Shown here in pieces: positions 36,024 through 39,029 of a stretch of 40,168 nucleotides of DNA (the first letter of the stretch is position 1; each line of letters opens with the position of its first letter). Where the stretch lies: assembly GCA_025924315.1 (NCBI GenBank), contig JAICIO010000047.1, forward strand, positions 1-40,168, given 5' to 3'. The notes beneath the pieces are model-generated. The model ran no database searches. It saw only the letters and a program-made list of their open reading frames with translations, and was not told the origin of the DNA. This DNA comes from Phycisphaerae bacterium. GTDB lineage: Bacteria; Planctomycetota; Phycisphaerae; Tepidisphaerales; Tepidisphaeraceae. A program made the translations under genes and the position numbers.

Positions 36024-36710
36024 TCACTCGACGCCGATATCCTCGTTCCACAGCGCCGGATTGTCGCGGATGAACTTCGTCATCATCTCGATGCATTCCG
36101 GATCGTGCTGATCGACGACTTCGATGCCGTTGGCGCGCATGAAGTCCGGCGATTTTCCCCATTTGCCTTCGCCGCCGGGGAAGGTGACGGATTCGCCGAC
36201 GATCACCTTGGGCACGCCGAACTGCACCGCAGCGCCGGTGCATAGGTAACACGGCATGAGCGTCGAATAGAGGACAGTGTCGGCGTAAGTTTTCTGCCGA
36301 CCCGCGTTGGTCAGGCAATCGATCTCGGCGTGCGCCATCGGATCACCGTGCTGCACGCGCCGATTGTGCCCGCGGCCGATGATCTGGCCGTTGCGCACCA
36401 GCACGGAACCGATCGGCAATCCGCCTTCGGATAATCCTTTCTTCGCTTCCTCGATCGCAGCGCGCAGAAATGGATCCATTTCGGTTGTTCCTTTCGATTG
36501 GCCGGCGGGCGCGAGATCGGCCGGGCGTAACTGCGACGCCAACTGATTCTCAAGAACGATCTCGTCGTAAACTTCCTTGCGATGGATCGCTACCGACGGC
36601 GGGGCGATGAATCCAAGCCGCACTTTGTCCCCGCGGACATCGACGACTTTCATCTCCACATCCGATCCGATCATGACGGACTGCGTCCGGCTCCGAGTCA
36701 GCACCAGCAT
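36024..36710 (-). CDS. CsrA-cytosine-deaminase-like fusion
   Basis: One uninterrupted 228-aa frame joins two unrelated proteins. Residues 1-60 are a CsrA carbon storage regulator: MLVLTRSRTQSVMIG, VRLGFIAPPSVAIHRKEVYD, an RNA-binding repressor of translation. A linker follows (NQLASQLRPADLAPAGQSKG), then a nucleoside/cytosine deaminase domain from about residue 78. Its zinc motifs are HAEIDCL and PCYLCTGA; PIGSVLVRNGQIIGRGHNRR and the long C-terminus resemble yeast-type cytosine deaminases. AAGGAG before ATG 36710 fixes the start. The internal ATG 36479 has its own AAAGGA, so the deaminase may also be made alone. An in-frame start at 36785 is less likely. Confidence 0.88.
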   Translation of the reverse strand: MLVLTRSRTQSVMIGSDVEMKVVDVRGDKVRLGFIAPPSVAIHRKEVYDEIVLENQLASQLRPADLAPAGQSKGTTEMDPFLRAAIEEAKKGLSEGGLPIGSVLVRNGQIIGRGHNRRVQHGDPMAHAEIDCLTNAGRQKTYADTVLYSTLMPCYLCTGAAVQFGVPKVIVGESVTFPGGEGKWGKSPDFMRANGIEVVDQHDPECIEMMTKFIRDNPALWNEDIGVE

Positions 36711-36754
36711 GGCGGCTCCTTCCTGGGATAAGGTGCCAGCATATGTCACCTCTC

Positions 36755-36770: not shown

Positions 36771-36807
36771 GCACTCGAGGCGCATGAAAGTATAACCGCG
36801 AAGAGTT

Positions 36808-38321: not shown

Positions 38322-39029
38322 TCAGGTTAAGGGCTTCCCTTTCGCCACGCTCGCCGCGCGCGGGAAGCCTTTCCGGGTGAAGCTGGTTTTGCGGATCTCG
38401 ACGATCACGTGATGTTCGGCGCCGGGAAGTTCAACCGGGTGAACGGTGGGCGGCATTCCGCCGAGGATCAGGATCGCTTTTTTGGCGACGGGCAGTTCTT
38501 CGGTGATCTTCGCGCCTTTCATGGCGAGGACTTTTCCGCCCTTTTTCGCGAGCGGAAGGCACCATTCGGCGAGCCAGACCAACTCGCCGACGGCGCGGGC
38601 GGTCACGATGTCGAAGGACTCTCGCAGTGAATTGATACCGGCGTCTTCGGCGCGCTGGGCGACGACGTTGAGATTGAGCAGCGGCAGCGCGTCGGCGACG
38701 CGGCGCAGGAACTCCGCCTTTTTCTTGGTCGCTTCAATCAGCGTGACGTGAATATCCGCCCGCGCGATCGCCAGCGGAATCCCCGGCACGCCGCCGCCGG
38801 TGCCGACGTCCGCGAGGCGGATCTTTTCCTTTGGCAGGAAGGGCAGCAGCGTGAGCGCGTCGCCGATGTGCCCAACCTCCCCGGCCTCACGCGTGACGAT
38901 GCGCGTGAGGTTCATCGTCTGATTCGCCTCGATCAGCAGATCGAGATATTTCGACAGCAACCCATGCTGCGGCGGCGAGAGCGTGACGCCGGCGCGTTTC
39001 GCCAGATCATTCCATAATTGAACTTCCAT
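38322..39029 (-). CDS. rsmG: 16S rRNA (guanine527-N7)-methyltransferase
   Basis: RsmG (GidB) methylates N7 of G527 in 16S rRNA; its loss gives low-level streptomycin resistance in other bacteria. The 235-aa product has the N-terminal helical part (HGLLSKYLDLLIEANQTMNLTRI), the SAM loop LADVGTGGGVPGIPLAIA (about residues 71-88), VTLIEATKKKAEFLRRVA and VTARAVGELVWLAEWCLPLAKKGG, all family hallmarks. The C-terminus is extended by about 15 basic residues. It heads an operon with a membrane-protein gene; it is not next to mnmG or parAB as in many bacteria. Confidence 0.94.
   Translation of the reverse strand: MEVQLWNDLAKRAGVTLSPPQHGLLSKYLDLLIEANQTMNLTRIVTREAGEVGHIGDALTLLPFLPKEKIRLADVGTGGGVPGIPLAIARADIHVTLIEATKKKAEFLRRVADALPLLNLNVVAQRAEDAGINSLRESFDIVTARAVGELVWLAEWCLPLAKKGGKVLAMKGAKITEELPVAKKAILILGGMPPTVHPVELPGAEHHVIVEIRKTSFTRKGFPRAASVAKGKPLT

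Follow-up and report, generated by a model that had tools for sequence, protein, structure and literature searches.

The question raised by this locus is whether a CsrA domain and a cytosine deaminase domain that share one reading frame in a Phycisphaerae bacterium form a single, maintained protein, and, if so, what such a protein might do. The window, by which we mean the whole stretch of DNA analysed, comprises 40,168 nucleotides (GenBank assembly GCA_025924315.1, contig JAICIO010000047.1), and the genome to which it belongs is denoted G000. On its minus strand, from 36710 to 36024, a single frame of 228 amino acids encodes, in order, a CsrA domain, a linker and a yeast-type cytosine deaminase. 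The features of the locus are as follows.

36027..36710, minus strand: CsrA-cytosine deaminase fusion of 228 aa, with full-length homologues in nine further genomes.
36716..36724, minus strand: Shine-Dalgarno AGGAAGGAG of the fusion, which includes GGA motifs; identical stretch in G020.
36543..36710, minus strand: CsrA domain, residues 1-56, with L4, R6, R44, I51 and N55 present; Pfam PF02599, 71.5 bits.
36480..36542, minus strand: linker, residues 57-77, of low confidence at about 67-75 (AlphaFold2 pLDDT <50 at 67-75).
36027..36479, minus strand: yeast-type (Fcy1-like) cytosine deaminase domain, residues 78-228; phmmer to yeast cytosine deaminase 1.1e-33, Foldseek to 1ox7_A 6.6e-18 with rmsd 1.1.
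36489..36494, minus strand: internal Shine-Dalgarno AAAGGA before ATG 36479; among the other fusions, G020 alone has a comparable site where the domain starts.
38322..39029, minus strand: rsmG (GidB 16S rRNA methyltransferase), conserved upstream neighbour; Pfam GidB.

The frame opens with an ATG at 36710, preceded by the Shine-Dalgarno at -14 to -6, and closes with a stop codon at 36026-36024; its translation contains zero internal stops. A second in-frame ATG, upstream at 36785, would give an alternative of 253 amino acids. In Pfam, CsrA matches residues 1-51 against a cut-off of 27 bits, and dCMP_cyt_deam_1, the zinc domain of cytidine and deoxycytidylate deaminases, matches residues 80-172 with 77.3 bits (cut-off 25). 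The initial annotation, which had named no strand and had described a complete CsrA with its Shine-Dalgarno running without a stop into a complete deaminase, is borne out. An AlphaFold2 model built from 28 input sequences has a mean pLDDT of 86.6; the deaminase domain is confident, the strands and helix of the CsrA part appear at lower confidence, and residues 1-3, like the low-confidence part of the linker, fall below 50.

The initial annotation had suggested searching for the same architecture in related genomes, and the full-length fusion (query residues 1-226, free of stops) is indeed found in nine others, at 63-77% identity. Our family sample consists of 26 genomes from 22 genera, all from the same family as the window; the carriers make up 10 of these genomes and 8 of these genera (G000, G001, G006, G007, G013, G014, G016, G020, G022 and G023), and in each carrier the fused gene is the sole match at E<=1e-30. 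Since the fusion occurs in ten genomes, one of which (G013) is assembled as a single contig, it is no accident of assembly, and an artefact of that kind is ruled out. As for the other members of the family, a close deaminase exists in free form in nine (G002, G003, G005, G009, G011, G012, G015, G017 and G021), G025 has a remote free deaminase only, and six have no deaminase match at E<=1e-30.

Beyond the family, we searched a class sample of 397 genomes that includes the 26, keeping the best stretch of each match and reading the frames of a subset of loci. Matches at E<=1e-35 occurred in 133 genomes, and only the same ten began at residue 1. Five began later but before the end of the linker, in G298 (residue 18, two stops), G060 (35), G293 (44), G017 (46) and G204 (49, three stops); of these, the frames of G060 and G017 were read and proved to be without CsrA. 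The class-wide search for CsrA covers its best matches, and other CsrA fusions may exist in the class. A phylum sample of 392 genomes gave three matches at E<=1e-60, of which the window's alone is fused; this sample drew no other fused genome. Six copies in public records (L040-L045, from a scan that retained 80 of 158 loci) come from Phycisphaerales or Phycisphaerae metagenome assemblies, one of them labelled Humisphaera; since six of our genomes encode identical proteins, these copies are not additional cases. An origin in a phage or another mobile element was rejected: one pattern-based scan of viral contigs yielded no confirmed relative, and none of 11 matching plasmid records covered 80% of the query.

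It is important to establish whether these carriers hold one gene or two. In the ten linkers, the coding frame has 0 stops in 349 codons; the two alternative frames have 8 and 5, and shuffling gives an expectation of 8.2. These counts are not independent, because the linkers are related. Linker length ranges from 23 to 42 codons, with insertions and deletions that keep the frame. Linker dN/dS is 0.16 and 0.81 in the two same-genus pairs, looser than in either domain, and by eye the linkers fall into two sets: those of G000 and G020 are short and contain a methionine, and the other eight are longer. The initial annotation had named relatives with separate csrA and deaminase genes as the finding that would tell against a fusion. 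Upstream of the nine free deaminases we found no csrA in the DNA examined, about 1.5 kb in three cases and about 5 kb in six (two matches were at chance level, E 0.26). The stop-free frame in 10/10 carriers, together with the absence of csrA beside 9/9 free deaminases in this DNA, excludes two separate genes.

Without a stop between the domains, the gene cannot yield free CsrA unless by processing or frameshifting. It could, however, yield free deaminase. In the window, the ATG at 36479 follows AAAGGA at a spacing of 9 nt, and in G020 an internal ATG follows AGGAG at the same spacing; both coincide with the start position used by free relatives (MDPF; MDQF in G020), so that in these two genomes internal initiation could add a free deaminase to the fusion. 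In G022 an ATG earlier in the linker, after AAGGAAGGG, is a possible internal start, and in the remaining seven fusions we saw no linker ATG with a good Shine-Dalgarno. Of the proposal in the initial annotation that an internal start would yield both fused and short forms, the well-formed start stands, convincingly in two of ten genomes and possibly in a third, and the products are narrowed to the fusion and possibly the free deaminase. One might go further and regard the gene as chiefly a device for making free deaminase, in which translating the CsrA frame that precedes the internal ATG would supply or control initiation there. The three genomes just described are what such a reading would predict, but seven fusions have nothing as good, and we consider it improbable.

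We turn to the deaminase half, whose chemistry bears on one suggestion made for this locus, namely that an RNA-binding module might direct deamination to RNA. The best solved relative of the C-terminal half is yeast cytosine deaminase, at about 43% identity, and structures of that enzyme also take the top ranks in Foldseek; no CsrA chain was present among the best 50 rows listed when the model of the fusion was the query. Eight residues, N116, H127, E129, C154, C157, F177, W221 and D224, do not vary across an alignment of 28 sequences, of which 7 are fused and 21 free. Among them, H127, E129, C154 and C157 align with yeast H62, E64, C91 and C94, which we take to be the zinc site of cytosine deaminase. 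The other four, N116, F177, W221 and D224, align with yeast N51, F114, W152 and D155, which PMC11000218 describes as the free-base pocket, comprising ligand-contact and exit residues. The deaminase part has dN/dS of 0.10 and 0.05 in the two same-genus pairs (Nei-Gojobori method, custom script) and 0.08-0.14 in three wider pairs, in which synonymous sites are near saturation. The known yeast-type enzymes (Fcy1; PDB 1uaq, 1ox7, 1p6o) thus resemble this domain in sequence, in fold and in all zinc and cytosine-pocket residues; they differ in that the solved ones are free homodimers, whereas here an RNA-binding regulator stands at the N-terminus.

If CsrA brought the deaminase to mRNAs, it might produce C-to-U edits near GGA sites. 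Physical tethering speaks for such a mechanism, and the wider deaminase superfamily does hold the tRNA editor TadA; the match to TadA is weaker, with the NCBIfam TadA equivalog scoring 75.2 bits, below its cut-off of 150. Against editing stand the nearest relative in both fold and sequence, the invariance of F177, W221 and D224, and the free relatives, whose identity is 76-81% in eight genomes and 65% in the ninth. A conserved pocket for free cytosine and close likeness to unfused relatives make RNA editing unlikely, and we assign it a very slight probability indeed; the targeted RNA deamination raised in the initial annotation is not upheld, given a catalytic domain of the yeast free-cytosine type in which all eight pocket and zinc residues are invariant. 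A role in defence was likewise considered and rejected: the NCBIfam equivalog for anti-phage dCTP deaminase scores 27.8 bits against a cut-off of 400, and PADLOC gives a weak partial match of 28.1 bits over residues 125-170.

We ask next whether the CsrA half is still a CsrA. Every one of the 10 fusions, and of the 30 other CsrAs examined, keeps the RNA-binding residues L4, R6 and R44. The importance of L4 and R44 for RNA binding is stated in PMC7652899, and that of V51/N55 for FliW binding in PMC7829508. At these FliW-contact positions, I51 and N55 are each found in 9/10 fusions, the window included; the exception is G020, which has lost both (K51 and R55) and has D in place of H at 43. The window's CsrA scores 71.8 and 68.2 bits against two NCBIfam csrA equivalog cut-offs of 73 and 70.1, and these slight shortfalls mark it as a somewhat diverged CsrA. 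Indeed, the window and G020 hold the most diverged fused CsrAs, with 59% and 56% identity to the normal copy of the window's genome.

That normal copy is a separate csrA directly downstream of fliW, an arrangement seen in 10/10 fused genomes (Pfam FliW was confirmed for G000). Because every carrier keeps a normal fliW-linked csrA, the fused CsrA is an extra copy. By its Pfam match, its RNA-binding residues and its FliW contacts it belongs with CsrA/RsmA of the FliW-linked type; it differs from the free CsrAs of the family, which have about 80-115 amino acids and no enzyme domain, in ending in a deaminase of 150 amino acids. Other unusual csrA genes were seen in this family. A degenerate tandem CsrA pair occupies one frame of 141 amino acids at G000:C1:113990-114289 (L005, L009, L010), and similar two-piece matches occur in G015, G002 and G009. 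In G021, whose cytosine deaminase is free, there are two extra free csrA genes (L140 on G021:C14 and L141 on G021:C18), with no fliW in the flanks examined.

The conservation of the CsrA half allows two further explanations to be weighed. The first, the main rival to the reading we prefer, holds that CsrA does no more than help the deaminase to dimerise, to stay stable or to be expressed, and that RNA binding is incidental. Both parent families form dimers, as stated for CsrA (PMC7652899) and for yeast cytosine deaminase (PMC11000218); in addition, the linker is less constrained, and the CsrAs of G000 and G020 have diverged. A CsrA with that role would have no use, however, for L4, R6 and R44 in every fusion or for the FliW-contact residues in nine of them, which are superfluous in a pure dimeriser. 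We judge this explanation to be rather unlikely.

The second holds that an extra csrA was fused neutrally, by read-through, with an adjoining deaminase gene, and that its CsrA half is decaying. The distribution is patchy, with free forms interspersed, and the divergence in G000 and G020 could be read in the same way. Decay is hard to reconcile with the substitution rates in the CsrA part, where dN/dS is 0.11 and 0.04 in the two same-genus pairs and 0.12-0.23 in three wider pairs whose synonymous sites are near saturation (same script); that is, four of the five pairs lie at 0.04-0.15 and the fifth at 0.23. Moreover, the frame has been kept in eight genera despite linker indels. Both domains, then, are under purifying selection, and neutral fusion seems to us very improbable.

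Patchiness also raises the issue of how many times the fusion arose. The deaminase tree requires the fused state to change at least three times with 31 rows, or twice with the 26 rows that remain when five long or remote ones are removed. There, G000 and G020 group with the free deaminases of G021, G002, G015, G005 and G011 (93/93 and 90/94), away from the other eight fusions, and the unconstrained trees separate this pair from those eight. Nonetheless, a single clade of ten fusions is not rejected by either part (p-AU 0.214 for the deaminase; 0.08 for CsrA, with 66 columns), nor is a clade of the other eight established by the CsrA tree (p-AU 0.077). The species tree, from rpoB and gyrB, is poorly resolved, 5 of 26 genomes having no rpoB match, including G014 and G020. 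These trees are compatible with one ancient fusion followed by later separations as well as with two or more fusions.

The neighbourhood gives a further indication. Upstream of the fusion, on the same strand, rsmG is found in 7/10 genomes; in six it lies within about 350 bases, and in the window it is 1.6 kb from the fusion gene with other genes between. No rsmG was present in the flanks examined of G016, G023 and G007. The same gene is upstream of the free deaminase in 3/9 genomes, adjacent in G002, at about 0.7 kb in G015 and at about 3.8 kb in G021. This shared locus, which sets the fusion beside rsmG rather than beside flagellar genes as in the FliW-linked type, suggests that gain, or else loss, of the fusion took place there. 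For the ten taxa with rsmG nearby, a branch of the unrooted deaminase tree (94/94) sets seven fused rows apart from the rest; in the rsmG tree of the same taxa, by contrast, the unfused G021 falls among the fused and two changes are needed.

We also inspected the leaders. An ANGGA motif within -60 is present in 4/10 fusions and so is not conserved, by which we reject general autoregulation through GGA sites in the leader. The GGA at the Shine-Dalgarno of the window and of G020 would fit self-control in those two genomes, although a Shine-Dalgarno often holds GGA anyway. TATAAT-like boxes, at about -52 to -14 of the fusion start, were noticed in the leaders of G006, G014, G023 and G007 (L012, L013, L018, L019), where the fusion may own a promoter.

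The cytosine deaminase is not the only enzyme to which CsrA is joined in this family. In G005, CsrA is fused to PurN (GAR formyltransferase) in a protein of 281 amino acids (L143:3359-4204, minus strand; G005:C41:115427-116269), with Pfam scores of 82.0 bits for CsrA and 148.5 bits for Formyl_trans_N; no other CsrA match in that genome exceeds the Pfam cut-off. Like the deaminase fusion, it has an N-terminal CsrA, a short linker and a C-terminal enzyme of nucleotide metabolism; it differs in serving purine synthesis instead of cytosine salvage and in being confined to one genome. Most genomes of the family have a free PurN, and no other protein spanning CsrA and PurN was found among the 26, nor among the 53 of 397 class genomes that match at E<=1e-70. 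A second candidate, in G276, begins to match at residue 16, but on reading has an RNase H-like domain instead. Of 16 loci fetched from the class's other families, 15 (L221-L233, L235, L236; G276, G178, G353 and others) were judged by eye to encode a PurN with an RNase HI-like domain at its N-terminus; L224 is the one for which Pfam confirmed RNase_H and RVT_3. That CsrA has been joined to two nucleotide enzymes within one family favours a functional reason, although two cases may be coincidence.

These genomes show directly that the fusion is conserved, that its RNA-binding and catalytic residues are intact, that purifying selection acts on each of its halves and that a normal csrA exists separately. 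The reading we prefer, and to which we give an even chance, is that of a bifunctional protein, in which an extra CsrA module binds GGA-containing mRNAs and an active cytosine deaminase is attached to it, coupling pyrimidine salvage with mRNA control of the CsrA type. The N-terminal module would form a CsrA dimer on such mRNAs, and the C-terminal module would convert free cytosine to uracil for salvage. A 2:2 assembly is likely, given that both parent families are homodimeric and that the linker seems to be flexible. The choice of mRNAs repressed by the CsrA part might then depend on how active the salvage enzyme is or on whether its substrate is bound, and probably also on FliW; equally, RNA binding might determine how much enzyme there is or where it lies. 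Besides this, the internal start could supply free deaminase in the window's genome. Regulation of, or by, the salvage enzyme, which the initial annotation had offered in part, is plausible. Since nine relatives have the deaminase without the fusion, the coupling cannot be essential.

A more specific version of this bifunctional protein would be a metabolite-gated CsrA, whose fused enzyme senses cytosine or uracil and switches the mRNA binding of the attached CsrA, possibly also under FliW; the CsrA-PurN protein would then be a second instance of a recurring recruitment of CsrA to nucleotide enzymes in this family. We put this forward tentatively. A possible working model is PyrR, which has the fold of a pyrimidine-salvage enzyme and also binds RNA and regulates expression. 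PyrR uses one domain for both jobs and acts by attenuation, and we claim no homology.

Both families are well known, but their combination, or any other fusion of CsrA to a deaminase or enzyme, was not found among the literature titles and abstract openings listed. The protein is small, simple assays exist for both halves, and each carrier's own normal CsrA and the unfused deaminase in close relatives offer natural comparisons, which makes the idea directly testable. PMC7652899 describes control of CsrA through small RNAs and through partner proteins, FliW and CesT among them. A covalently attached metabolic enzyme, if the bifunctional reading is true, would be a new route by which metabolic state feeds into CsrA control. 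Even if the attachment were structural only, it would indicate that a global regulator can be reused as a protein module. For the bacteria that carry it, the fusion points to a direct and so far unstudied connection of pyrimidine recycling with the control of mRNAs.
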